A stretch of DNA of 38,860 bases from Methanobacteriota archaeon. Lineage in GTDB: Archaea > Thermoplasmatota > Poseidoniia > Poseidoniales > Poseidoniaceae. The notes under the pieces were generated by a model, which saw nothing but the letters and a program-made list of their open reading frames with translations, had not been told where the DNA came from and made no database searches. Location: positions 1 through 38,860 of the forward strand of contig JABJFI010000087.1 of assembly GCA_018662825.1 (NCBI GenBank). The letters run 5' to 3'. The translations under genes were made by a program, and so were the position numbers. Below are positions 13,233-37,146 of the stretch, piece by piece; position 1 is the stretch's first letter, and each line of letters opens with the position of its first letter.

Positions 13233-13673
13233 ATGGCCGAGCCAACATTGTTCGACCGAATTTTGGATAAAACCATTCCATCACATAAGGTTGCTGAAGG
13301 CGAATATTGGTACGCTTTCTTGGATATTTTCCCGCGTCGAGAAGGCCATACATTGGTCATCCCAAAGCAAAGTGTTCGCCGTCTTTCAGAACTTTCACAA
13401 TCAATGAGGGAGGCGTTGTTTAACGGCGTAGTAGAAGTACAACAAATTCTCTCCACCCATTTTGAAACTGAAGATTTTACCGTTTGCATTCATGATGGAC
13501 CGCTTGCCGGCCAAGAAGTACCTCATGTACATGTGCATGTCATTCCTCGTAACGCTGAAGATGGCGGCTCAACATTGCAAGCAATGTGGCCACACGCCCC
13601 TCCATTAGGCGGCGATGTAGATCACGAATCCTTGGGTTCTCTTTCTACTCAACTTCAAGAGGTGAAACAATGA
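13233..13673 (+). CDS. HIT-family nucleotide hydrolase/transferase
   Basis: The histidine triad motif HVHVHVIPR is present, preceded by VCIHDGPLAGQEVPH. The N-terminal half has the family's FLDIFPRREGHTLVIPKQ segment. HIT proteins hydrolyse or transfer nucleoside monophosphate groups, for example Ap4A, AMP-lysine or Fhit-type substrates; the exact substrate cannot be told. Length is typical (146 residues). The stop codon overlaps the next start as ATGA, so translation is probably coupled to the acyltransferase. GAGG sits just upstream of the ATG at short spacing. Confidence 0.93.
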   Translation: MAEPTLFDRILDKTIPSHKVAEGEYWYAFLDIFPRREGHTLVIPKQSVRRLSELSQSMREALFNGVVEVQQILSTHFETEDFTVCIHDGPLAGQEVPHVHVHVIPRNAEDGGSTLQAMWPHAPPLGGDVDHESLGSLSTQLQEVKQ

Positions 13674-15292
13674 GCAATTCTTCAAATCCACCTAATACCG
13701 ACCATCGCGGCGAAGACCTTCCCACACTTTCAAAGTCAGCAAAAAATATGCGGATGGATAAATTATTATCGACTCCAATTCCCTCATTCGAAGGCGATAC
13801 CCCTGGCTCCTTTTTCTGGTCCCATGTTGCTTTTTGGATTGCACGGCGCATTCTTGCAGTTCAGTTCCGAACAAGTGAAGTGACAGGCGTTGATACTCTC
13901 CCCCTAGAACGTGGAAATCTTTGCTGTGCATGGCACACTAACGGTCTCATCGACCCGCTACAGATAGTCCTTAAACACCCCAATAATTTTCTCATGGGTG
14001 GCCGCCATGATTTGGTTACACGCCCATTGCTCGGTTGGTGGACACGGAAATTAGCAGTGCAACCTGTGGTTCGTAAAGCCGAACTCTTGAGAGGCGGTTG
14101 TACAGAGGAAGAGGCTATACATTTGAATGGCCGTTCGCTTATGATGCTGGCGACAGGAATTTCAGCAGGTTTTGGGTGTGTTCTTTTCCCAGAGGGCACA
14201 AGCCATAACGAATCCTCATTGCTCCGGTTCAGAACAGGACCATTCCGAACTGTTTTTGCCGCTGCAGCGATTGCCAAAGCCAACGATCAACCCATTCCTG
14301 CCGTCATCCCACTCGGTTTGCATTTCAGAAGGCGCGATCATTTCCGAACTGATGTGTGGGTTGAATATGATGCACCTCATTACATCCAAGAAGATGAAAT
14401 TCCAAATGAACTTGTTCAAGCTGTTGCGAAAGGCAATTGGGTTGAGCCTGCGGCAGAAAATGTCTTCGCTCTTCGTGATGCTTTGCGTATCAAAATGGGC
14501 CCACTCACACCAAATACGCGAGATTGGGATGAATACCATGCCCTTCACCTGTTGGGGCATGTTGAGGCTCGTAGAGCCAGCCAACCACTACTTTCATGGA
14601 GAAAAGAAGTCGAGGCTGCACGTGTATTTCGTACTTTACTTCAACCAAAACTTCCAGATGAAAAAATAGTTGAAAATTCAGAACTTCCGGAGATTACGCA
14701 TCCCGTTTTCATGCCAGCCAAAGCAGTAGCAGGATTGCTTCAAAACAATCATCTCGATGGACGGGATTTGAATAATTCAGGAACAGATTTACGCAGATTT
14801 AATCCGGTTCGTGGATTGACAAAATTGATTCGACTACCTCTACTGGTAGCTATGTTACCATTGTTTTTGTTTTGCTTCCTGCCACAACTTGCTGTAGGAC
14901 GATTGCTTGGAGATTCAACCGATGAAGGCGTAGATGCCCGGACCTCGTATCATTTCCTTGCCGCGATGTTTGGCTCTCTAATGTTTTGGCCATTTATGGC
15001 CCTCGGGATAATGGGGATTGAAAGCATGTACCATAGTTCAGTAGAATCCATACTTGGATTCGATTGGTACCTGTTGTTCGGTACAACCTCTCTACACCAG
15101 ATTTTGGCCATGGTGGTCTTTTACCTCTCTCTTTTCCCTTGCTTTTGGTTCAGTGGCCGGACCTCGGCTTTGTTTTGGGACGATTGGTGCGATTTCAAAC
15201 AAACAATACGTCGTTTGAGGTTCAATGCTACAAATCGTCAAAACCTTCGCGGGGCACTAAAAATCCTTAACGAAGAAATGGACAAATTGTGA
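13670..15292 (+). CDS. PlsC-like acyltransferase with C-terminal membrane region
   Basis: The domain near residues 70-250 resembles glycerol-phosphate/lysophosphatidate acyltransferases. It has CAWHTNGLIDPLQ (histidine block, but HX5D instead of the usual HX4D), LLGWWTRKLAVQPV and FPEGTSHNESSLLRFRTGPF (block III equivalent of FPEGTRSR). After about residue 380 come three or more hydrophobic segments (LIRLPLLVAMLPLFLFCFL; AMFGSLMFWPFMALGIMG; ILAMVVFYLSLFPCFWF), giving 540 residues, much longer than simple PlsC. The track start at 13586 is out of context: ATG 13670 overlaps the HIT stop as ATGA and has an AGAGGTGA-type site upstream. The acceptor could be a glycerol phosphate or another membrane alcohol. 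Confidence 0.85.
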   Translation: MSNSSNPPNTDHRGEDLPTLSKSAKNMRMDKLLSTPIPSFEGDTPGSFFWSHVAFWIARRILAVQFRTSEVTGVDTLPLERGNLCCAWHTNGLIDPLQIVLKHPNNFLMGGRHDLVTRPLLGWWTRKLAVQPVVRKAELLRGGCTEEEAIHLNGRSLMMLATGISAGFGCVLFPEGTSHNESSLLRFRTGPFRTVFAAAAIAKANDQPIPAVIPLGLHFRRRDHFRTDVWVEYDAPHYIQEDEIPNELVQAVAKGNWVEPAAENVFALRDALRIKMGPLTPNTRDWDEYHALHLLGHVEARRASQPLLSWRKEVEAARVFRTLLQPKLPDEKIVENSELPEITHPVFMPAKAVAGLLQNNHLDGRDLNNSGTDLRRFNPVRGLTKLIRLPLLVAMLPLFLFCFLPQLAVGRLLGDSTDEGVDARTSYHFLAAMFGSLMFWPFMALGIMGIESMYHSSVESILGFDWYLLFGTTSLHQILAMVVFYLSLFPCFWFSGRTSALFWDDWCDFKQTIRRLRFNATNRQNLRGALKILNEEMDKL

Positions 15293-15340
15293 TATATCCT
15301 TGAGGGTGCTATTCAAACGAGAGGAGTGTTTACGATTACC

Positions 15341-15988
15341 ATGTCGGGTAAAGATGCGATGCTTAAAGTCCGTCAATGGATTGAACAAGAACGCCTTGTA
15401 GTGAAAGAGCAAAAAGATCCTCGAGCAGAAATGCACTTACTCATACGCTATCCACAAGGGCCGCAAGGCCATATGTTTGCAGTCGTAATACCGAAAGGGC
15501 GCGACTTAGTCGCCGTTTCGAGCATGACTCGTGTTGATGAAGGACAACAAAAAGAGATGTCCACCCACATGAAAGAAGACAAAGAAGCATGGTTGGAATG
15601 GATTCATGACGTACGCCTTCAATTGATTCGAACAAGTGTTGATTGGGGCATACACATGGGCCATGAAGGAGACCAAAAAGTGGGCCCCCTTCAAGCGTTC
15701 AATGTGAGCCTCCCACTTTGGTTTGACGGCCTCACAAAGAATGAATTCATGCATACGCTTCGAAAACTATGGCTTGCAAAACTTGGAATAATTCACGAAA
15801 TTAAATTCACACACGGGCCAGGAATTGGAAAGCCAGGTCCTGTTGATGATTGGGTGAAGGCAAAACGAGAGGGAAAGCAACCTCCTTCAAGTTCAAATGA
15901 AGGTTCTGACCAATCAACTCATCATGAAATAGAATTCGATGAAAAAATGTCTTTTGGCTCCGGATTCGACCCTTCTGAATGGGCATAA
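15341..15988 (+). CDS. Conserved-looking soluble protein, possibly DUF2299-like
   Basis: A 215-residue soluble protein. The N-terminal 150 residues alternate beta strands and helices (DAMLKVRQWIEQERLVVKEQ; MHLLIRYPQGPQGHMFAVVI; RDLVAVSSMTRVDEGQQ), a layout that recalls the archaeal DUF2299 family, but I cannot confirm membership. The C-terminal 50 residues are polar and probably disordered (KQPPSSSNEGSDQ). The track start is a GTG at 15326 that overlaps GAGGAG; ATG 15341 uses that site at a long 14-base spacing and is preferred with moderate confidence. It follows the acyltransferase by about 50 bases. Confidence 0.7.
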   Translation: MSGKDAMLKVRQWIEQERLVVKEQKDPRAEMHLLIRYPQGPQGHMFAVVIPKGRDLVAVSSMTRVDEGQQKEMSTHMKEDKEAWLEWIHDVRLQLIRTSVDWGIHMGHEGDQKVGPLQAFNVSLPLWFDGLTKNEFMHTLRKLWLAKLGIIHEIKFTHGPGIGKPGPVDDWVKAKREGKQPPSSSNEGSDQSTHHEIEFDEKMSFGSGFDPSEWA

Positions 15989-16066
15989 GCGGCCAAGTCA
16001 GGCTTTTGAAGGCCCACTAAAAAAAATGACTTGAATGGGTCGCGGTTAAGTAGCATGAAAGTCTGC

Positions 16067-16073
16067 TTTTTTT
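16067..16073 (+). terminator. T-rich tract, possible transcription terminator
   Basis: A run of seven T residues in the 109-base gap after the 215-residue gene. Archaeal termination often occurs at such tracts. It lies only about 25 bases before the next ATG, so it could instead be in that gene's leader. Confidence 0.3.
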
Positions 16074-16097
16074 CAGTCTAACCTTGGATGTGTATTT

Positions 16098-19000
16098 ATG
16101 AGTCAAAAAATTAAATCAGTCAGCCTTGTATCAATTATGTTGCTTTCCGTCCTCTCGACGTTGTTTTTAGCAACTCTAACTGCCACAGCAAATACCGTTG
16201 TTATTACCGAAGCGATACAGATTGTTGATGGTGGAACCTCCTCCGATACGCAAACAGCAGTCGGCTCCGACAGTGAAGGAAATGTTCACGTTGTTTGGGC
16301 CCGAAATAACCTCCACCTCTACTATTCCATGCTTTCACCACGTGGTGAAACATTGATTGATACCACCCAAATCACTAACCCAGGACTTCACAAGATTTGG
16401 CACCCTGACATGGTTGTCGATGAAAACGACAAAATCCACATTGTTTGGGCCGATAAATCCGCTCAACACAAAATCGTCTATACCGTTCTCAACCCATGGA
16501 AGGCTGCAATGGATGGTTCGGCTTCCGACGACACAACACTTTCTGCAATAAACGACCACGTTGTTTCAAGCCGTGCTCAAAACCGAGATTGGCCAGCAAT
16601 CGATATTGATAGCCAAGGTGGAGTCCACATTGCTTGGGAAGATTCCTATGACGAATTGGGCCGTTTCTTTAACCAACCTCAAATCTATTACACCATGCTT
16701 GTACCAGATGTTAGCACAGGTTCAGTCATCACCAACTTCGATGATACATTGCTCACACCAATCATTGGTCACAAGGGCCACCCCGACATCGTCGTCGATG
16801 CGAACGATTACGTTCAAATCGCTTGGGACGATACACGTGGCGGTAAGGTTGAATTAAACTTCATCGTCGATACATCGGGTTCGATGTATTCTGAATGGGC
16901 AGATATCTGCACTGTTGTTTACGGCGGAAACTTTGCTTCAGGTGGTTATTTCCAAGGTATTAAGCCAATGCTTGAAACTGCAAACATGACCGTTTACGAA
17001 ACAATTTACGGACTAGGAAACACACTTCCTGGTGCGGCAAGCTCAGGAAACTGTGCCGGATACAATCAGAATTCTGGTCCTCGAACCACACCTCTCGGAC
17101 AATTCCCGGGAGATGATTCAGGTGGAATTCGTAAGTTGCCGGGTACTGTTTACAATGGCAACACATATTCTGGATACTCTGGTGAAGACTGGGGCCCGGG
17201 TAGTAACTGGGCTTGCTTGTCTTGGAAAGACGCAACTGGCAACGTCCCAGGCAACCCTCCAACTCAAGACGACCACCGTTGGAACCCAAATGCAACAAAG
17301 ATTGTTATTCCTGTTTCCGATGAAGGGCCAAAAGATGGTGACCCATCTCAACAATCAGATGATTTGACATCAATTGAAGAGGCTCACGACAACTGTATCA
17401 ATGCAGGTGTTATCCCGGTCGGTCTTTACGGACAAGGATACGGTGGCGCTGGAAACATCCAATCCCACTTTATGGATCTCGTTCAATGCCCTAACAGCGT
17501 TGTTTCGACCTCAACCCGAAACTGTCCAGGCAATACACTACGCAGTTCCGATGCTGGCGGTCAAGCATATGAATTCCCATCCGGCTCCGGCGGCACCAAT
17601 GCAATGGCCCTATTGGTCGAAGCAATGGTTTACATCTCAACTAACAATTCTCGTGAAATTTACATGTCGGTTCTTGACCCCTATGGTAAGATGAATAACG
17701 ACCCTGGATGGGTGCCTGGTGCTACTGGACACTCCATCATTGGCGGGGCATATGCCGAGGATACAGGTGCTGGCGCAGACGGGCATCTTGTTGTTGTCAA
17801 TGACACACGCGTAACTATCGACGACGCTTACTCATTCCACCCATCTATTGGCGTCGATATGCAAGGAAACACACACATCGCTTGGATGGATGGCCGAAAC
17901 TATGGTTTCGAAAAGGGCGTCAACTACGAAGTTTTCTACACTAAACTGCGCTTGCAAGGAGCAGGTGCTTGGGATGGTGCAGACCAAGGACTTTCCACTT
18001 ATGCAATTAAGAAAATCCAAGACACACCAATTTCTACTGTTGAAGGAAACTCCGGACTTCCGGGTAATCGCCCATACGGTGGCAACTCAGTCTTCCCTGC
18101 ACTACTTACCGATGACCAAAACAACATCCACATTGCTTGGGTTGATTCAGCAAATGCAACAGCGGATGAAGAGATTCTCTACACTCGCTTGAATTCAACT
18201 GACCTCACAGGACCAGGCCTTACTGCATTGGACCCTTGGGAAGCAGTACCTGTAACATCTTGGGCAAGTAACAAACTTGGTCCAAATTCTGGTAGTCAAC
18301 CAAGCATAGGTATGCCTCCAGCGTTCTCCAATGATTTGGGTAGCGGTGCGCATATTGCTTGGTCAGATACCAATAAGTGTAGTGAAGAAGCCAACAATAA
18401 TAGGTTCACTATCTGTTATTCACACGTTCTTACAGGTCAAGTTGATGTTGAATTCCAAGACGGAGAAACATTCTATCACGTGATTGAACCAGGCCAGCAA
18501 ACCATCTACAATATGTCGATGAACAACTCGACACCAGGTCCTAAAGACCTCGTTGCAGATACATTTGGCCTCAACATTTCAGGAGTTCCTCAAAACTGGA
18601 CTGCAACACTATTCTTTGCAGATAATCACACGACTATTATGCCAGATACACCAATCTTCCTCGAAGGTGGCGAAGATATTCGCTTCTACATGCGTGTCCG
18701 TGCTCCATCGGTCTATCAGGCGGAAGCAGATCAAATAGCTGATATTTCGGTGACGGCAAAATCGTACAAAGACCCAGCAATTCAATCCGACTTGGTCACC
18801 CGTACTCTCATGGACGTTGTACATGGAATAAATCTCGACACATCTCACAGCATGGCAGATGTTGAACAAGGGCAAACTGCAATTTTCTCGATTACGATAA
18901 CCAATACAGGCAACGTTAATGACCGCTTCATCTTCTGGGACCCTTATACTTTGGAAGGGCAGCAAGAGTGGCTACTACCGTTTAATTGGGCTGTTAACTT

Positions 19001-21212
19001 CCCAACCAGTGTTGAGCTAGACCCAGGGCAATCAGTGACGAAGAACCTTGAAGTTCTCGTTCCAACATCTGAAGACCCCGGTGCCTTCGTGATTTATCTC
19101 AAAGGTTGGTCGGAAGGTGAACCAATCAAGTCCATAGAGAAGGGTACTTATGATGTTCTCGAACTTGGAGTATTTGTGTCAATACGTTCTACAGGAAATA
19201 TTGTAATGGATATCTGGGACCTTAGCGAAATGGTTGACCCCGGAGACTGTGTAATTTACGAAATCAACGTTACCAAGAATTTCGATTCTGGAAGTTTGGT
19301 TTTCGTCACACCCGGCGCCCCAGAAGCCAAGCCAGACAACATTTCAATGGATGCATGGCGCACTGACAATTGGGTAATGAACCTAGACTTTTCCAATGCC
19401 CCAGGAGGCAACTGGAACAACCAGGATTTTGAGCGACTGGAGGATATCAGTAAGCCAAGAGATTGGACGATTCCTCCCACTGCTGATTACATCAAATACA
19501 AAGTCGGTGTACAAGTATGTGCCCCAACAGGAGCATCCGCAGGACTTGGTCCAGCAGTTATTGTGAAAGCATATCTTGAAGGATACCCTCGTATTTCAGC
19601 TTCAAAGATTCTTTCGACCAATGTGAATCACGTGTTCTCTTTGCATGCAGATGCAGACATTGATGACGATGATAAAATGACGCTCAACGGTCAAGAAGTT
19701 CTGCCTGTTAACCCAGGTCAGCAAATCATTTTGCCGACAACGGTAACCAATCATGGAAATGGCCCTGATCGCTTTGATTATCGACTCGCACGAGTCACTG
19801 ACCCATCGGGCGTCGATGTTCTTTGGGATATTGAAATACCTCGTGAAACACTCAAGGAATTATCTAGAGATACTAACCAAATTTTCGATATTACTATGAA
19901 TATTCCAGATCAAGTTGAAGCAGGAGTTTACATGGTTGTCTTCCAAACTTTCTCTGAAGAATCATACCCTGATGCAAGCGGCCGTCTTACACGTCTGCGA
20001 TTTACACAATTAATTCCAGTCTATGTGCAGGAATTCTATGATATGCAAATCAGCATGGATTCAACGGTGGACAATGCAATCAAAACTTCAGCACCAGGAC
20101 GTATTGTCCGGTTTGAATTGAACATTACCAACAATGGAAACGTCCCTGATTGGCCAACCCTCAACAATCACACTGCGAACCGAGATGGTGAATCATTGAT
20201 TTGGACTGAGTTGCCTGGAATGGGCACACTCGACGGCTGGTCTGTTGAATGGCGATTGGTGAAACAAATTGGAACTGATTTGACAACCGAAGAGCAATGT
20301 GAAACCGTTGCCTCACTTGAAACCGTTACAGGAGAAGAAGACGCTGCAATTGATCCTGCAGTTGTCTTTGCTGATTTGAGCGACCGTTGTGTCTATCTTG
20401 AATCCGATGACAGGTATTTTATGCCGAAGATGGAACCTTATTCCACCTATCCAGTTGTTGCTATTGTTAAGGTTGCACCATCTGCTAAACTCGATACCCG
20501 AAGTATTGGTCTGAAGGTCGTATCTAAGATGGGTAACATGCTCGAAGGTGGCGACCATGATGATTCACCATCATGGGCTGATGAATTCCTCGACAGCAAT
20601 GAATTCATTGTTACACTACGCTTGCGTGCTCCAAACTTGATCATTGCAGATGTGAGTGTTTCTGACGATACAGGCGATGTTGATACAACCATCCCAATTC
20701 GTGTCATTCTTCGAAACGATGGAAATACACATGCAACCGACATTGAAATCGTTTTGTGTGAATATCCAGATGCTTCTGATACAGACACGATTAACGAAAT
20801 CAAATCAAACGGTTGTGATGATGAAAGTATAGTCATGCGCCAAGTTATCGGCGCACTTCTTGCACCAGATGATTCTGAAGATTACAAGGAAATTGAATTG
20901 GTTCTCCTTTACCCTGTCTCTGCAGGTAGTCACGGCATCTATGTTGTCGTCGACCCGTCAAATGAAATCGTTGAAACACAAGAAAGTGACAATATCAAAC
21001 CTGTTGAAAAGGAATTGAAATCAAGCGGTGGTATGCTGGATGTTGCCGGAGAAGTGATTGGTAAGACCGCTCTTCCATTCGCTGTAATTCTGTTGACCTT
21101 TGCTCTGTTTGGAGTTGTTTACCTCGTTGGACGTGGACGACGCCAAGATGTCTTAGACCGTAAGGCTGAGCAATCGTCTTTGGTATCCGTCTTGGCTGGA
21201 AACGACCTTTGA
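16098..21212 (+). CDS. Giant secreted protein: propeller with inserted VWA, CARDB-like repeats, C-terminal anchor
   Basis: The 1704-residue protein has a signal peptide (about 1-32, SLVSIMLLSVLSTLFLATLT). Seven blade-like repeats with the pattern HP-IVVD-x-N-x-HIAW-D lie at about 55-80, 102-132, 165-202, 228-248, 580-618, 665-700 and 733-775. A von Willebrand A-like domain (about 250-512) with the MIDAS motif DTSGSM (258-263) interrupts the fourth repeat. From 780 to about 1655 come Ig/CARDB-like units (ITNTGNVNDRF; LNITNNGNVPDW; VILRNDGNTHATDI; VDPSNEIVETQESDN). The last 45 residues hold one TM segment (LPFAVILLTFALFGVVYLV) and a short basic tail. It should be displayed outside the cell and may bind a ligand or partner through a metal ion. 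Confidence 0.92.
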   Translation: MSQKIKSVSLVSIMLLSVLSTLFLATLTATANTVVITEAIQIVDGGTSSDTQTAVGSDSEGNVHVVWARNNLHLYYSMLSPRGETLIDTTQITNPGLHKIWHPDMVVDENDKIHIVWADKSAQHKIVYTVLNPWKAAMDGSASDDTTLSAINDHVVSSRAQNRDWPAIDIDSQGGVHIAWEDSYDELGRFFNQPQIYYTMLVPDVSTGSVITNFDDTLLTPIIGHKGHPDIVVDANDYVQIAWDDTRGGKVELNFIVDTSGSMYSEWADICTVVYGGNFASGGYFQGIKPMLETANMTVYETIYGLGNTLPGAASSGNCAGYNQNSGPRTTPLGQFPGDDSGGIRKLPGTVYNGNTYSGYSGEDWGPGSNWACLSWKDATGNVPGNPPTQDDHRWNPNATKIVIPVSDEGPKDGDPSQQSDDLTSIEEAHDNCINAGVIPVGLYGQGYGGAGNIQSHFMDLVQCPNSVVSTSTRNCPGNTLRSSDAGGQAYEFPSGSGGTNAMALLVEAMVYISTNNSREIYMSVLDPYGKMNNDPGWVPGATGHSIIGGAYAEDTGAGADGHLVVVNDTRVTIDDAYSFHPSIGVDMQGNTHIAWMDGRNYGFEKGVNYEVFYTKLRLQGAGAWDGADQGLSTYAIKKIQDTPISTVEGNSGLPGNRPYGGNSVFPALLTDDQNNIHIAWVDSANATADEEILYTRLNSTDLTGPGLTALDPWEAVPVTSWASNKLGPNSGSQPSIGMPPAFSNDLGSGAHIAWSDTNKCSEEANNNRFTICYSHVLTGQVDVEFQDGETFYHVIEPGQQTIYNMSMNNSTPGPKDLVADTFGLNISGVPQNWTATLFFADNHTTIMPDTPIFLEGGEDIRFYMRVRAPSVYQAEADQIADISVTAKSYKDPAIQSDLVTRTLMDVVHGINLDTSHSMADVEQGQTAIFSITITNTGNVNDRFIFWDPYTLEGQQEWLLPFNWAVNFPTSVELDPGQSVTKNLEVLVPTSEDPGAFVIYLKGWSEGEPIKSIEKGTYDVLELGVFVSIRSTGNIVMDIWDLSEMVDPGDCVIYEINVTKNFDSGSLVFVTPGAPEAKPDNISMDAWRTDNWVMNLDFSNAPGGNWNNQDFERLEDISKPRDWTIPPTADYIKYKVGVQVCAPTGASAGLGPAVIVKAYLEGYPRISASKILSTNVNHVFSLHADADIDDDDKMTLNGQEVLPVNPGQQIILPTTVTNHGNGPDRFDYRLARVTDPSGVDVLWDIEIPRETLKELSRDTNQIFDITMNIPDQVEAGVYMVVFQTFSEESYPDASGRLTRLRFTQLIPVYVQEFYDMQISMDSTVDNAIKTSAPGRIVRFELNITNNGNVPDWPTLNNHTANRDGESLIWTELPGMGTLDGWSVEWRLVKQIGTDLTTEEQCETVASLETVTGEEDAAIDPAVVFADLSDRCVYLESDDRYFMPKMEPYSTYPVVAIVKVAPSAKLDTRSIGLKVVSKMGNMLEGGDHDDSPSWADEFLDSNEFIVTLRLRAPNLIIADVSVSDDTGDVDTTIPIRVILRNDGNTHATDIEIVLCEYPDASDTDTINEIKSNGCDDESIVMRQVIGALLAPDDSEDYKEIELVLLYPVSAGSHGIYVVVDPSNEIVETQESDNIKPVEKELKSSGGMLDVAGEVIGKTALPFAVILLTFALFGVVYLVGRGRRQDVLDRKAEQSSLVSVLAGNDL
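16845..17634 (+). other. VWA-like domain inserted in blade 4 of the propeller
   Basis: The segment starts right after AWDDTRGG of the fourth repeat with VELNFIVDTSGSM and ends before NNSREIYMSVLDP, which completes that repeat. It contains Cys pairs (ICTVVY, GNCAGY, NWACLS, DNCIN, VQCPN, RNCPG) and the late VWA-type strand TKIVIPVSDEG. Domain limits are approximate, from reading the translation. Confidence 0.75.
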
Positions 21213-21224
21213 TTCAGTGAACAC

Positions 21225-21989
21225 TCACAAATTCTTACGGGGTAGTGAGCCGAGCCAGAACCTAAGGTTTGAGTTGTTTGGAACAGCGACAATTTGTCCT
21301 GCTCGTTCCGACAGTTGACGTTCGAGCCTATTTCGAACTTCATCGAGTAAGGTTGCCATTTCAGTTTGTCCCAATTGTAACTCTCTGCGCAAATCGGTGA
21401 GATCTAATTTTCGCTCCGGAGCCTCGATAAGACTGTGAACCATTGTCCGTTGTTCATAGTGTTCAAAATCAGAATCAACCCCGGCAGAGATACGATTTCT
21501 AATATGCTGATGCAAGGCAATGACTGCGTCCCTTTGGGCATCAATATCTTCAAGAATTCCATTGAGATGTTGAATATGGGCCATACCTTCTCCAACAGAT
21601 ATTTTCTTGCGTCCACTCACGGATTGAACCACAGTTTCAGTTGCATTTGGTAATCTCTTAGAAAGACGCATGGGCCCTCCAGCAGGTAGACTACGTTGCT
21701 CACAAAGAAACAAATCGGGCCCCAAATCGATTCGGAGTGAAATCGATTGTTGAACACTGTATATCGTGCGTGGCGGGCCGCCCTTTTCACTTGCCACCTT
21801 CATTTTTGTTACGAAATTACCTCGCTCTAATTCGCGTAAATGTTTGACAATTGCTTGCTGACTCACATCGAGTAAATCGGCGAGCTGCATGGGGTAGTGC
21901 GGTTCACGAACCAATCGTTCGAGAATCTGACGGCGTAACTTGTTTTGAAGCAAGGTTAGGGCGGTATCAATATCTTCCACACTGCTCAA
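21225..21989 (-). CDS. ArsR-type winged-helix transcription regulator
   Basis: The N-terminal 90 residues form a winged helix: LQNKLRRQILERLVREPHYPMQLADLLDVSQQAIVKHLRELERGNFV followed by a wing (SEKGGPPRTIYSVQQS). This is the archaeal ArsR/HTH_20-like pattern in which the effector usually binds behind the DNA-binding domain. The rest (100-254) is helical (LNGILEDIDAQRDAVIALHQHIRN) with no metal-binding CxC motif seen. The track start is TTG; GTG at 21980 is another option. It is convergent with the giant surface-protein gene, its stop being 12 bases away. It could act on a neighbour, but no binding site was identified. Confidence 0.85.
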   Translation of the reverse strand: MSSVEDIDTALTLLQNKLRRQILERLVREPHYPMQLADLLDVSQQAIVKHLRELERGNFVTKMKVASEKGGPPRTIYSVQQSISLRIDLGPDLFLCEQRSLPAGGPMRLSKRLPNATETVVQSVSGRKKISVGEGMAHIQHLNGILEDIDAQRDAVIALHQHIRNRISAGVDSDFEHYEQRTMVHSLIEAPERKLDLTDLRRELQLGQTEMATLLDEVRNRLERQLSERAGQIVAVPNNSNLRFWLGSLPRKNL

Positions 21990-22105
21990 CTCGGAGTTAC
22001 CTAGACATAGGCACTCTTTGAAGGCGTCGCTTCAATCAAACTCACTAAACAACACTTGAAGACCAAGTCATGAAGGCTGAGATTGATAATCGAACATGCA
22101 TAATC

Positions 22106-23140
22106 TCACATATCGTCCCAAACAGCCCAGTCTCCAGATTCGGATTTTGGCTCCTTTGACTGAACCGATTTTCGCTGCACTGGCCTATTTGGTGTCACAC
22201 TCGTTCCATTGTCTCCACTATCCCAATCTGAAATTTCTTCAGTATTTACGACGGTTTTCTTCCCTACTTGTCGTACCACTTTTGGAGTATCGGCAAAGGG
22301 GTCTTCAACCTCTTGTATTCTTTCAGGGGTATCACCTCGCATAAAGGCATAAACTTGTTCGGTAGTCAAGAGAGTTCCTTGCATGACATCTTTTGAGCCA
22401 TCGACAAAGCCATCGTCACGTTCTATGCCCTCTTCGGGTAATTGAGCACCGGCATTTTGGTGAAGGGTGCTGTTAGAGTCTTTTAACGCAGCCATTAAAT
22501 CATCTTGGTTGTCAAATGATTGAAGCAACACTCCATCGTTATCAACAACTCTGAAGGTGCCATGAATCGCTTTGCTCCGTGCCGAATAGGCGAGAATCCC
22601 TGCAATAGGGAGAAAGAGAAATCCAAGACAACAGATGCCGAATCCAAATATAATTCCACTCGATTCATTAATACTTGGCGGCCAAGTCGAATCAGTGTGT
22701 ATCAACCAAACCGTTTGCCCTTCACATGTATCTTTAACACATGAACTTGAAGCCATCATTTCACCACTTTCTTCTGCAACCCATTGCTCTTGAATAGTGA
22801 ATGCCTCACCATCGGATGCCATAGGATTCCAATCTGAAAAGCATGATTTTGGAGCGAGGTCTTCGCTTGCAGCAGCAGACCCAACAATTGGTGTTAACGT
22901 GACTTCGAGGTCAGTCCCGCTTTCCAAAACTACAGCCATATAGCAATTTTTTTCTTCAACATCAAAAGTAGCCGAACCTTCTCCTTTTATTTCTGCGATT
23001 GAAATTTCTCTTGGATCAAATATGGAATCGATTGTTTCACTTTGGGAGTTTAGAAGAATCATTCCAGTAACAAGGAACAGGACTCCCAATATTGCTAATC
23101 TTGCGACCCAGGGGGAGCGCTTTTTCATTCCCTCGGCCAT
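22106..23140 (-). CDS. Two-TM membrane protein with long cytoplasmic tail
   Basis: The sequence begins MAEGMKKRSPWVARLAILGVLFLVTGMILL, a typical N-terminal anchor. About 130 residues of external domain with several cysteines follow (NCYMAVVLESG; SCFSDW; SCVKDTCEGQ), then a second hydrophobic segment (GIIFGFGICCLGFLFLPIAGILAY). A 140-residue acidic tail ends in SGDWAVWDDM. I do not recognise the family; the layout resembles the 208-residue two-TM protein at 5360, but no sequence similarity was established. It starts at ATG 23140; ATG 23128 is possible. It lies 42 bases downstream of the top6A stop on the same strand. Confidence 0.78.
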   Translation of the reverse strand: MAEGMKKRSPWVARLAILGVLFLVTGMILLNSQSETIDSIFDPREISIAEIKGEGSATFDVEEKNCYMAVVLESGTDLEVTLTPIVGSAAASEDLAPKSCFSDWNPMASDGEAFTIQEQWVAEESGEMMASSSCVKDTCEGQTVWLIHTDSTWPPSINESSGIIFGFGICCLGFLFLPIAGILAYSARSKAIHGTFRVVDNDGVLLQSFDNQDDLMAALKDSNSTLHQNAGAQLPEEGIERDDGFVDGSKDVMQGTLLTTEQVYAFMRGDTPERIQEVEDPFADTPKVVRQVGKKTVVNTEEISDWDSGDNGTSVTPNRPVQRKSVQSKEPKSESGDWAVWDDM

Positions 23141-23182
23141 GGTCTTGCCTCATCCATCATCCTCAATGAATCCTTGCGAGCC

Positions 23183-24280
23183 TTAAGCTAGTCCTAATTC
23201 AGCTAATTTTTCGGGCAAGTAGGTTTCAGTAACGAAGTCCAAACCGTACTTTGCCAAGGATTGTTGTTCCGCTTTCTTTCCAAGTTCCAACATCATATTG
23301 ATTTGTTCTTGCCACCAACTGTCGGCAAACCGAGGGTCTGAAAGTTCGGCATTCAATGCTTCAATATCTTTCTTCGACAAATCATCATTAGGTAAATCAT
23401 ATGCGACAATATCATCTGCAGTAATGCCGAGATAGGTGGCAGATGGAGTGGCAAGATATTCAGAAATATGGGCCGTTTTAATCGCACCATAAGCAATTGA
23501 AGCAAAAATACGGAACGACCACGGGTCACCGTCGAGGAACACAACAACAGGCAAATCCCATTCCTCACTCATCCGTTTCATAATACGTCGAGTTGAACGA
23601 GCAGGTTGCCCTTTGAGATGCAATAGCCCACATCGATATTCTTCATCAAATCCATTTTCAATCAAACGGTCGAACATACCACCAGTTTCAATCGCCATAA
23701 TGAAGTCAATATCGTGCTCAAGCAATTCTATTTTTTCGAGTTCGACATTGTAGGGTACACCGTATCCCGAATCTCCAACATCGTCTCGCGCATTGATTCG
23801 CATCCACTCGCCGCGACGATTACGTTCGCGCAATGTCAAGTTTCCAATCATCCTAGCGCCGTCTTCTTCAGGACGTAATTTGAAATCTTCACGCAAACAT
23901 TTTGTTACAATTTCTAAATCTTCAGCAAGATTATTTGAATCATTTTGACTTCCAAATTTGCCCATCCCCCATCCCTCGGAAATATAGTACATTTCTCTCA
24001 GGGTGGAAGACTTTCCAGCATCCAGCATTTCTTCAATGAATTCAACAACGTGTAATGCCCGAAGCAATTGTTTGGCTGAGCCAAGGCTGGTTGCATCACG
24101 AACAGATTGTTTTTTTCCATATTTGTAAACACCGAGTTTTTTATCAAAACCAATGTTATTTTTGGTCCTAACTGGAAGCGTCATTGTAGGAGGCTCGCCC
24201 TTGACGATTCGGTCATACATTTCTGCAACTACTTCATGCATGGCTGCCTTAGTTTCTTCTGGTGTGCGCATACGAGACAT
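23183..24280 (-). CDS. top6A: DNA topoisomerase VI subunit A
   Basis: The Spo11-like cleavage subunit of the archaeal type IIB topoisomerase. The catalytic-tyrosine region is [18 protein letters not shown] (Tyr98/Tyr99 from the chosen start), and the Toprim metal site is seen in [11 protein letters not shown] and [15 protein letters not shown] (Asp-x-Asp). It cuts both strands with 5'-phosphotyrosyl links and works as an A2B2 complex with subunit B to relax and decatenate DNA. The track opens at a TTG (24283); the ATG at 24280 shares its A with the top6B stop as TGATG, which shows tight translational coupling. Length (365 residues) is typical. Confidence 0.96.
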
Positions 24281-26379
24281 CAAACATCACCTCCAAACAA
24301 GGTTCGTTGGCCATCTGGAGGGCTAACAGAAGGTTCAACCTTTTCTTCAATAGCCTCAGACTTTTGTTCTGCAGGTTCGGTAGAAGTTTCGACCACTTCT
24401 GAATAATCCTCGGGGGATGCGATACCACTTTCCTTCAATAATTGTTCTTGGCGGCGAATTTCTTCAAGGAATTTCTCATCCATTTTTGTAGCCCCGATAA
24501 CATCTTGAGAGCCACGGAATAATACCTCAGTTTCCGTCCAATCACCGCGTTCTAATCCGCTTAAACTGTATGAGATAGTTATCTTTTCACCAGGTTGTAA
24601 CGAATCGAGTTTCCAGGCCCATACACCAAGTGCTTCCTTCCGCCCTCCAGTATCATTGTTTTCCATCGTCGCCCCAGACTTTTCAGGCCATGTGGCAAGA
24701 AGTGTGTAGGCTCGAACCCGGCTTGTATAATTGAACAAAACAATTTCGACATCGATATTCTTGGTTTCTTTATTCCATTCAGTCGTTGATTCTGAAATAA
24801 CAGCAGACATGATTTTGGTAATTGAGCCTGAGAGCTCCGGCACTGGGCGTTCAAGAATTTGTGCTGATTTTTCAGCAATAGCGGGTAAGATATCATTGAT
24901 AAGTTCGAATTTTTCCTTGGTCTTTGCCATTTTCTTCTTCTTTTCCAAATGCTTTCGTAAGCCACGCCCCATCTCAAGCATTGCCTTTCTCGCCTCTTCC
25001 ATCACTTCTGCATTATCGGCCAAGGCTTCTTTTGCTTCAGAAGTAAATTGAACATTAGTACTCGCAAGATGAACTAAGATTGCCGCAGGGCCTTTTGGAA
25101 CACCTTTCCCGCCGGCCTGATCTAATCCGTATTGTCGCCAATCAACACTTTCAATGGCTTTGGTGAGTAAACAGCCACCTTGTTGATACATTAGCGGCAC
25201 TCGGTTTGCAAAACGCAAGATTTCAACCGGTTTATCACCGGGCATACCGCCGCCAAAAATCAGACCAACTTCAACTTGGAATGGATTACCTTGTGTAACA
25301 CTGGGAACACGAGTAAGTGTTGTAATAAAGCGAGAATCAATGGTTTTTGATAGACCTTTTTTTATCAGTAATTCTTCGATTGGAGACAGACAATTTGTTG
25401 GAGGCTTGAGTAACTTCACAGGTAATGCATTGAATAACCGTTCTCCTTGGAAGGCTTCTAGAAGCGCACGAATATCATCGCCCTTGATGCTCTTCATTTT
25501 CCTAGTACCTTCGATTTCAGATGCTTGACACAATTCTTTGCGAGCACGATTGGTCACGCCAGAGAAATTATTGAGTAAAAAATGATTCAAATTCAGATCT
25601 TTTGATTCAGATACCATGCGTTGTAATTGACCCAATTCTATGCCGTGGGGATGTGGTTTGATGCTTTCGACCTTTGTTGGTAATCGTTCGGTTACACGAG
25701 TCCAGTGATGTTTTTCCCCTTCAGGGTCAATAAAAATAATCTCGGCATGCGGGTTAACGATGCTCGTCATACGAAGATATTGCCAAACACTTTGTCGGCC
25801 TTTCTGATACTTTGCTTTCATTTGAGCAGTAACTTCTGTACCGTGTTCCTTGCCAGTGCCATCTTCATTGTACCAAATCTCGCGCCCTGCATTCGATTTT
25901 GTTGCTTTGTTTTTACGAGTGTCCAGTCCTATATCCACAAAGGCAGCCGTAGGTTCAGTGGCAATTTTTGAGCGAACATGTGTCGTTTTACCGGTGGTTA
26001 ATTGGCAATACATCACAACCCCGGTAATTCCGATTCCTTGCTGGCCACGAGATTGACGAATCGCGTGGAAACGCGAACCAAAGAGAAGTTGTCCAAAGAC
26101 CTTCTCGATGCTCTTCTGTGGTATTCCTGGGCCGTTATCTTCAACGACCAATTTGACGATATCTTTCTTGGTATCGAGTTTAGTAATATGAATACGAATT
26201 GTGGGGAGTATTCGGGCCTCTTCACAAGCATCCAGTGCATTATCAACTGCTTCTTTTACTGCTGTAATGAGCGAACGTGCAAGGGAATCAAAACCTAGAA
26301 AATGCTTGTTTTTCTCAAAAAACTCAGATATTGCAACTTGTTTTTGATTTGATGCGAGTTTTTGTGCGATGCCAGCCAT
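24280..26379 (-). CDS. top6B: DNA topoisomerase VI subunit B
   Basis: This is the GHKL ATPase subunit of topoisomerase VI. Visible motifs are the N box EAVDNALDACEEA, the G1 box VVEDNGPGIPQ, the G2-type GQQGIGITG, and a central helix-two-turns-helix plus transducer part with the likely switch segment around GGKGVPKGPAAILVHLAS. ATP binding dimerises the subunits and drives strand passage by subunit A. A C-terminal tail (about 650-699) is Glu-rich, ending GQRTLFGGDV. I prefer the ATG at 26379 because GGAGGA lies seven to eight bases before it, over the track start at 26421. It is the first gene of the top6B-top6A pair. Confidence 0.96.
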   Translation of the reverse strand: MAGIAQKLASNQKQVAISEFFEKNKHFLGFDSLARSLITAVKEAVDNALDACEEARILPTIRIHITKLDTKKDIVKLVVEDNGPGIPQKSIEKVFGQLLFGSRFHAIRQSRGQQGIGITGVVMYCQLTTGKTTHVRSKIATEPTAAFVDIGLDTRKNKATKSNAGREIWYNEDGTGKEHGTEVTAQMKAKYQKGRQSVWQYLRMTSIVNPHAEIIFIDPEGEKHHWTRVTERLPTKVESIKPHPHGIELGQLQRMVSESKDLNLNHFLLNNFSGVTNRARKELCQASEIEGTRKMKSIKGDDIRALLEAFQGERLFNALPVKLLKPPTNCLSPIEELLIKKGLSKTIDSRFITTLTRVPSVTQGNPFQVEVGLIFGGGMPGDKPVEILRFANRVPLMYQQGGCLLTKAIESVDWRQYGLDQAGGKGVPKGPAAILVHLASTNVQFTSEAKEALADNAEVMEEARKAMLEMGRGLRKHLEKKKKMAKTKEKFELINDILPAIAEKSAQILERPVPELSGSITKIMSAVISESTTEWNKETKNIDVEIVLFNYTSRVRAYTLLATWPEKSGATMENNDTGGRKEALGVWAWKLDSLQPGEKITISYSLSGLERGDWTETEVLFRGSQDVIGATKMDEKFLEEIRRQEQLLKESGIASPEDYSEVVETSTEPAEQKSEAIEEKVEPSVSPPDGQRTLFGGDV

Positions 26380-26456
26380 GGGTATTCCTCCGACAAAGGT
26401 CCTCCTCTGTCCGAATGACATCGGGCCTATGTGGTAAGCAACCTTGTCGGCCGACG

Positions 26457-36048: not shown

Positions 36049-37146
36049 TCATTCAATGCCTATCGAACTGGTTGAAGGTGTAGTTTCAACGAGCTCATCA
36101 TCACTGTTCGTATTTGCTGCCGCAGCAGCCTCGAGCGTTTCCCGCGTAGCCTGAGCACGATGGTATACTTCGCGTAATGTTTGGTCTGAGATTTCCAGAT
36201 ACACTCGTGTTGTGGCAATGCTTGAATGGCCAAGAAGACGTTGAATTGTCACTAAATCTGCACCGCGTTCTAACAAACCCGTAGCAAAATTATGCCGTAA
36301 CACATGCGGCGTTAATTTCCCCTTCGGGAGGCCAGCCTCTCGAGCTAGAGAATCCATCAACCGCTGAACTCCACGAGGCTGTAGTCGACGCCCTGCTGAA
36401 TTCAATAGGAACGCAAAATCATCATCTCTGACCCGTGCTTCGCGAATTGGAATCCATGCATGAATGCGCTCAAGCGTTCTGCGAGTGAACAACACCAAAC
36501 GGTCTTTGTCCCCTTTCCCACCATAGACCCGAGCAGAACCATCTTCTAGATCGATATCATTTCTGTCAAGATTGCACACTTCACTCACCCGTAAACCTGT
36601 GTCAAGCATCATTGTTACGACAATCGAAGCAACCGGATTTTCACTTTTGGCTGAGGCATCCAAAACCATTGTCATTTCTCTTCGATTTAAAGTCCGAGGA
36701 AGCCGCTTTCCTGTTCGAGCTCGTACCAAATGGTCCGGCCAGCGATGACCAAGCCATTTGAGTAAATGACGTGCAGCAGCAAGGCGCGCATTGTAAGTGG
36801 TTGGACGCAAATCGGACAATCCATGTGTCCACCGGTCAATTCTCCCGTTAAGTGGCTCCATCCGTTCAGCCAATTCGTATACAGTCATTTTCTGATAATC
36901 TGACTCACTCAGAACATTTTCGTCAAGTAGGGTCGTTTCGATTAAAGCGCGTAATCCACTTGCATAGGATTTTTGCGTATTCAAGGATTTATTTTCCGCC
37001 TTCAATGTCTGCATATAACAATCGAGCCAAGGCAAATTTTGCATGTGGCTGAGACGCGGTGGAAGCGTGACTGAGGCATCATTTAGCCGTAGTTGGCTCG
37101 GCCTCAAAGCCTTGCGATTTCGCTCCTCTCTTCTCCGCGTATTCAT
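36049..37146 (-). CDS. Tyrosine recombinase of the XerC/XerD (XerA) type
   Basis: All six catalytic positions are seen: Arg186 (DTGLRVSEV), Lys211 (GGKGDKDR), His281 and Arg284 (TPHVLRHNFATG), His307 (LLGHSSIATT) and Tyr316 (RVYLEI). The N-terminal SAM-like core-binding domain is at about 38-145 (ENKSLNTQKSYASGLRAL). This fits an archaeal XerA that resolves chromosome dimers at a dif site, or an element-borne integrase. No att sites, tRNA junction or phage genes adjoin, which favours a housekeeping role. A short perfect inverted repeat lies just upstream. The C-terminal tail (DELVETTPSTSSIGIE) is extra. Confidence 0.93.
   Translation of the reverse strand: MNTRRREERNRKALRPSQLRLNDASVTLPPRLSHMQNLPWLDCYMQTLKAENKSLNTQKSYASGLRALIETTLLDENVLSESDYQKMTVYELAERMEPLNGRIDRWTHGLSDLRPTTYNARLAAARHLLKWLGHRWPDHLVRARTGKRLPRTLNRREMTMVLDASAKSENPVASIVVTMMLDTGLRVSEVCNLDRNDIDLEDGSARVYGGKGDKDRLVLFTRRTLERIHAWIPIREARVRDDDFAFLLNSAGRRLQPRGVQRLMDSLAREAGLPKGKLTPHVLRHNFATGLLERGADLVTIQRLLGHSSIATTRVYLEISDQTLREVYHRAQATRETLEAAAAANTNSDDELVETTPSTSSIGIE

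Follow-up and report, generated by a model that had tools for sequence, protein, structure and literature searches.

A VWA domain nested within a propeller in a probable surface receptor or adhesin of Poseidoniales

The window analysed here, a stretch of 38,860 nucleotides from a Poseidoniales contig, contains on its forward strand an open reading frame (16098-21212) whose translation runs to 1,704 amino acids without an internal stop. The protein raises the question whether a VWA domain sits inside a single propeller at the surface of an archaeon and, if so, how this arrangement relates to that of the alpha-I integrins, the known case of a VWA insertion into a seven-bladed propeller, which is assigned to early chordates (PMC3192720; PMC4237329; PMC12422189). 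The order of its domains is a signal peptide, a propeller with the VWA nested in it, an Ig-like stalk, a C-terminal transmembrane helix and a short tail. In our view, the protein is probably anchored in the membrane in type I orientation and serves at the cell surface as a receptor or adhesin, with a BNR/RIVW-type propeller that harbors the VWA domain. Its features are the following.

16098..16190, + strand: signal peptide, residues 1-31, from hydropathy, with a basic n-region and an AxA end recognised by eye
16197..16844, + strand: propeller part 1, blades 1-3 and strands A-B of blade 4, residues 34-249, from motifs, model and blade HMM
16845..17642, + strand: VWA domain with MIDAS, residues 250-515, inserted within the B-C hairpin of blade 4, from the VWA-only model, Foldseek and the junction scan
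16869..16883, + strand: MIDAS loop 1, DTSGS, residues 258-262, from conservation in the alignment of 50 relatives
17184..17210, + strand: E-x-W-G-P-G-[ST]-x-W loop, residues 363-371, probable MIDAS loop 2 (S/T369), from conservation
17316..17324, + strand: MIDAS loop 3, SDE, residues 407-409, from conservation
17643..18467, + strand: propeller part 2, strands C-D of blade 4 and blades 5-7, residues 516-790, from motifs and model
18468..21047, + strand: Ig-like stalk, residues about 791-1650, from NCBIfam and Pfam matches
20631..20996, + strand: CARDB domain, residues 1512-1633, Pfam PF07705
21069..21131, + strand: transmembrane helix, residues about 1658-1678, from hydropathy
21132..21209, + strand: short basic tail, predicted to be cytoplasmic, with an RRxxxxxRxAEQSSL motif, compared across 42 diverse orthologues

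The initial annotation had read seven propeller repeats from the sequence, and this count stands: the core motif [HQ][IV][AV]W occurs seven times within residues 30-840 (at 64, 114, 177, 240, 593, 678 and 752), whereas 5,000 shuffles gave 0.02 copies on average and never more than two. Structure prediction had been proposed as a way to distinguish a nested from a serial order, and the AlphaFold2 model of residues 30-835, computed from an alignment with 49 relatives (pLDDT 86, pTM 0.82), positions the VWA within blade 4 and not in series with the propeller. In this model, each of blades 1-5 is made up of four strands (A-B-C-D), whereas blades 6 and 7 lack this regularity and show three clear strands apiece; blade 7 also scores poorly against the blade HMM described below. 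Foldseek searches against the PDB matched seven-bladed proteins over 700-850 alignment columns, thereby bridging the VWA insert. Among the matches were the PLL4 lectin (TM 0.61 by target), the PL25 ulvan lyase (TM 0.51 by target), a rhamnose-glucuronate lyase (TM 0.54) and CylK (0.40-0.42), all of which we take to be seven-bladed propellers. These structural matches suggest that the seven blades close into one ring; the N-terminal segment probably contributes the last strand of this ring. A profile search of the PDB sequences returned nothing significant; for the VWA, its best match was the integrin alphaM I domain with a non-significant E of 0.78.

Where precisely the propeller is interrupted can be delineated from both model and sequence. 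Blade 4 is broken after AWDDTRGG (residue 249) and taken up again at NNSREIYM (516-523), which leaves an insert of about 267 residues, and its strands in the AlphaFold2 model (A 226-233, B 239-245, C 520-526 and D 565-571) place the VWA in the gap between B and C. A blade HMM was derived from other Thermoplasmatota whose propellers are uninterrupted (23 blades; L099, L101, L102, L104 and L105). Against this HMM, the native blade 4 is incomplete (16.5 bits, model positions 2-29); with residues 249-514 excised, it becomes complete (23.9 bits, model positions 2-39). A scan of 1,806 junctions had its best score, 31.9 bits against a median of 20.5, when residue 249 was joined to residue 516. The interruption of the fourth repeat after AWDDTRGG, as initially proposed, is thus borne out by the restoration of the blade upon excision and by the position of the best junction, and the nesting of the VWA within the propeller is upheld by the model, the Foldseek matches that span the insert and the junction scan alike. 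Since the best junction lies at 249/516, the insert occupies the B-C hairpin turn, the position of the WxDxRxGNxxIYY turn of ordinary blades. The B-C and D-A loops of a propeller lie on the same face, and the VWA consequently projects from the face that bears the I domain in integrins, albeit from a different loop.

The identity of the insert rests on its fold. The VWA-only AlphaFold2 model (pLDDT 89, pTM 0.90) has the Rossmann-like VWA fold, and its Foldseek matches are led by the I-like domains of integrin beta8 (E 2.2e-4) and the I domains of integrin alphaM (TM 0.55-0.57 by target), with the VWAs of CMG2 and Rpn10 matched as well; the E-values are modest, only two lying at or below 1e-3. 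The VWA assignment made in the initial annotation is thereby confirmed. Pfam PF00092 found no match in the 1,704-residue protein at the gathering score. The sequence shows the MIDAS pattern DxSxS...T/S...D, and the residues concerned are highly conserved among 50 relatives: D258 and S260 are present in 49/50 and S262 in 47/50, D408 in 49/50 and E409 in all 50. W365, G366, P367 and W371 of the ExWGPG loop are likewise invariant (50/50) and S/T369 is found in 48/50, its assignment to MIDAS loop 2 being based on its position before a helix, that is, on sequence order. Six cysteines of the VWA are kept in 50/50 relatives.

Several paralogues depart from this pattern. In L073, L074 and L082 the MIDAS is degraded (DSSGG, DSSTG and PTNGY) while the rest of the VWA and the cysteines are retained; these proteins are perhaps metal-independent or non-binding versions, and metal-dependent binding is therefore not universal among the relatives. 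The Thalassarchaeaceae paralogues L076, L078 and L080 carry an extra segment of 137-248 residues inside the VWA, ahead of its last helix, which appears jelly-roll-like by eye in the alignment. From the same alignment, a segment of roughly 96 residues breaks this inner one in L076 and L078, so that three levels of insertion can be read.

The remainder of the protein agrees with the Ig/CARDB-like stalk and the C-terminal transmembrane anchor that had been suggested at the outset. CARDB (PF07705) is matched at residues 1512-1633 with 26.9 bits against a cut-off of 22.7, and further Ig-like matches fall below their cut-offs: NCBIfam choice_anch_T at residues 843-992 (69.3 bits, 0.7 under the cut-off of 70) and Pfam DUF7507 (919-981) and NPCBM_assoc/NEW3 (1205-1282). 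The highest hydropathy of the protein is found in the window at 1659, and its second hydrophobic maximum, beginning at residues 7-11, is that of the signal peptide. The C-terminal peak is followed by GRGRR and then by a partly conserved AEQSSL-like tail; the tail reads GRGRRQDVLDRKAEQSSL, and its RRxxxxxRxAEQSSL motif recurs, with variations, in a diverse set of 42 orthologues. The cytoplasmic location of the tail is predicted from hydropathy and basic residues. Mean identity amounts to 61-67% for the head and for the stalk domain next to it, as against 46-52% for the distal stalk.

The gene is near-universal in the order. Of 171 genomes sampled from the family, 164 have a matching orthologue, as do 114 of 116 genomes from the order Poseidoniales, and every well-completed genome in these two samples has a match; the matching public contigs are labelled Poseidoniales, Poseidoniaceae or Thalassarchaeaceae. 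The nested order, left part of the propeller, VWA, right part, is found in 155 of the 165 VWA-bearing open reading frames, a figure that includes loci shared between collections and hence represents fewer independent genomes. Four of the other ten are truncated at the ends of reading frames or contigs, and six are non-Poseidoniales sequences without a propeller. Matches outside Poseidoniales in the phylum sample are short, propeller-only or VWA-only, and across this sample and the 80 best-matching of the VWA's 296 relatives in the genome collection, the propeller and this VWA subtype occur outside the order only apart. No relative was detected in the viral contigs that were scanned. The gene order acyltransferase, DUF2299, propeller-VWA gene, HTH, topoisomerase VI A and B, aconitase (the latter counted only where the sequence extended that far) is kept from acyltransferase to topoisomerase VI in seven genomes representing both families. 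Collectively, distribution and gene order point to a single insertion of the VWA before Poseidoniales diversified, followed by vertical descent. The gene is usually single-copy in Poseidoniaceae; Thalassarchaeaceae genomes often possess one or two diverged nested paralogues in addition.

Some further observations concern individual loci. In the source contig, the conserved gene-order block spans 13586-26421, and a gene for a phage-integrase-family recombinase, which may be either a chromosomal enzyme of the XerC/D type or one borne on an element, is located at 36049-37146 on the minus strand. The nested paralogue L106 (G172 contig 42) has a stalk of thrombospondin type 3-like repeats and a C-terminal SAP-like match below the cut-off. 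A plain Poseidoniaceae version of the protein is encoded on a contig filed as a Rhodobiaceae bacterium (L142), which is most likely mis-binned.

Both building blocks of the head can be found separately. Homologous VWAs of the same subtype exist in another Thermoplasmatota family (L097, pairwise E 2e-16) and in delta-proteobacteria/Myxococcales (L110, pairwise E 7e-18); the VWA of L110 matches PF00092 with E 1.4e-4 and 22.6 bits, just under the 23.8 cut-off. The ExWGPG[ST]xW loop is a signature of this subtype common to bacterial and other archaeal VWAs, and L097, L098, L110 and L111 share with the Poseidoniales domain DTSGS, ExWGPG[ST]xW and P-I-S-D-E. However, their VWAs stand in series among Ig-like/CARDB domains and not inside a propeller, and neither the long loops nor most of the cysteines are present in them. 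The delta-proteobacterial proteins L110 and L111, about 3,400 residues in length, combine the ExWGPG VWA with repeated CARDB domains and also carry FG-GAP-like and NHL-like repeats, as named by eye. Conversely, the uninterrupted Thermoplasmatota propellers match HMMs of the Poseidoniales propeller, and L099 and L104 resemble the Poseidoniales protein in blade type, signal peptide, stalk domains and transmembrane helix (L099: propeller-CARDB-PKD-TM). They lack the VWA insert and thus represent the empty-site state.

The resemblance to the alpha subunits of alpha-I integrins (alphaM, alphaX, alpha2, alphaE and others) is extensive: both have an N-terminal seven-bladed propeller, a VWA/MIDAS domain inserted into it, an Ig-like stalk, a single transmembrane segment and a short cytoplasmic tail. 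The details differ. The I domain of alpha-I integrins is inserted between blades 2 and 3 (PMC3192720; PMC12422189), whereas the archaeal VWA interrupts blade 4 at its B-C loop. The archaeal blades are BNR/RIVW-like, in contrast to the FG-GAP/Cage blades with Ca-binding loops of the integrins, and FG-GAP families had no match in the archaeal protein or 50 relatives. Stalk domain classes differ from the integrin thigh and calf, and the VWA departs from the integrin I domain by its extra loops and six invariant cysteines. GFFKR is the membrane-proximal tail motif of integrin alpha subunits; no motif of this type is present in the archaeal tail. No beta-subunit partner is evident among the neighbours of the gene at its locus. 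Membership in the alpha-I integrins was rejected on insertion site, blade type and tail. Since insertion point, propeller type and tail all differ, the likeness speaks for convergence: the archaeal protein and the alpha subunit of the alpha-I integrins are analogous and not homologous, and the nested arrangement was apparently built independently of the collagen- and leukocyte-type integrins of chordates.

The PilY1 protein at the tip of type IV pili, which functions in surface sensing and adhesion, likewise contains a VWA with a MIDAS and a seven-bladed propeller (PMC13190605). Its VWA precedes the propeller in series and the protein is pilus-borne, whereas the Poseidoniales VWA is nested and its protein transmembrane-anchored. 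Membership in this group was rejected because of the serial order in PilY1 and because PF05567, the PilY1 propeller family, found no match in the Poseidoniales protein.

Judged from its sequence, the protein is most likely a membrane-anchored, MIDAS-dependent adhesin or receptor, and we propose it as a candidate for such a role; the "extended cell-surface adhesin or sensor" of the initial annotation fits this architecture. The stalk would hold the head away from the cell, and the propeller would serve as a rigid platform that turns the MIDAS face outward. The MIDAS would hold a divalent cation, abundant in seawater, and this cation would bind an acidic group of a ligand, probably one on particles, on algal or microbial surfaces, or on a surface protein of another cell. 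The partly conserved tail may provide a link to something intracellular.

Alternatively, the propeller might be the functional part of a glycan-binding or glycan-degrading head (lectin, lyase or sialidase-like), with the VWA only stabilising it or docking a partner. The best structural neighbours, PLL/PHL fucose lectins, PL25 ulvan lyase, rhamnose-glucuronate lyase, sialidases and CylK, are in line with this, marine polysaccharides are a plausible target, and the propeller may even be catalytic, as several of the Foldseek matches are enzymes. Nevertheless, we regard this as rather unlikely: the Foldseek E-values are weak and spread over many propeller families, so that they tell more about the fold than about what it does, and few features of the protein are as constant as the MIDAS residues and the six cysteines of the VWA. 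A receptor in which the pull of a ligand on the VWA is relayed via propeller, stalk and transmembrane helix to the tail and a cytoplasmic partner is a more improbable reading again. It could build on the partly conserved basic tail with its AEQSSL-like motif, on PilY1, which pairs the same two domains and senses surfaces (PMC13190605; PMC8806160), and on integrins, which do likewise with the same nesting (PMC12422189). However, no partner gene is found among the neighbours (DUF2299, acyltransferase, HTH regulator and topoisomerase VI), and the tail is short and variable, above all between the two families of Poseidoniales. That the protein is a major structural component of the envelope, its VWA making lateral metal-bridged contacts without a foreign ligand, is the least likely of these explanations: it is near-universal, usually single-copy in Poseidoniaceae, very large and extracellular, but known lattice proteins do not have the form of a head borne on a long stalk.

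Adhesion in MGII has been discussed in terms of archaella, thrombospondin and flotillin genes (PMC6461757; PMC6336850), and our text search of the open-licence literature found no description of the Poseidoniales propeller-VWA protein. With this protein, the archaea that are most abundant in the plankton of the surface ocean would gain a specific candidate for a surface receptor, one encoded in nearly all of their genomes. The insertion of a VWA into a propeller is presented in the integrin papers cited above as a chordate event of integrin evolution; with the nesting in Poseidoniales and both the free VWAs and the uninterrupted propellers elsewhere, an independent instance of domain insertion is now at hand. 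It is tempting, if speculative, to go further and suppose that Poseidoniales evolved an alpha-I-integrin-like receptor on their own, through one insertion that preceded their diversification, with ligand binding at the MIDAS and transmission across the membrane via the tail. If this tentative scenario is true, propeller-VWA nesting would have arisen at least twice, once in an archaeon.
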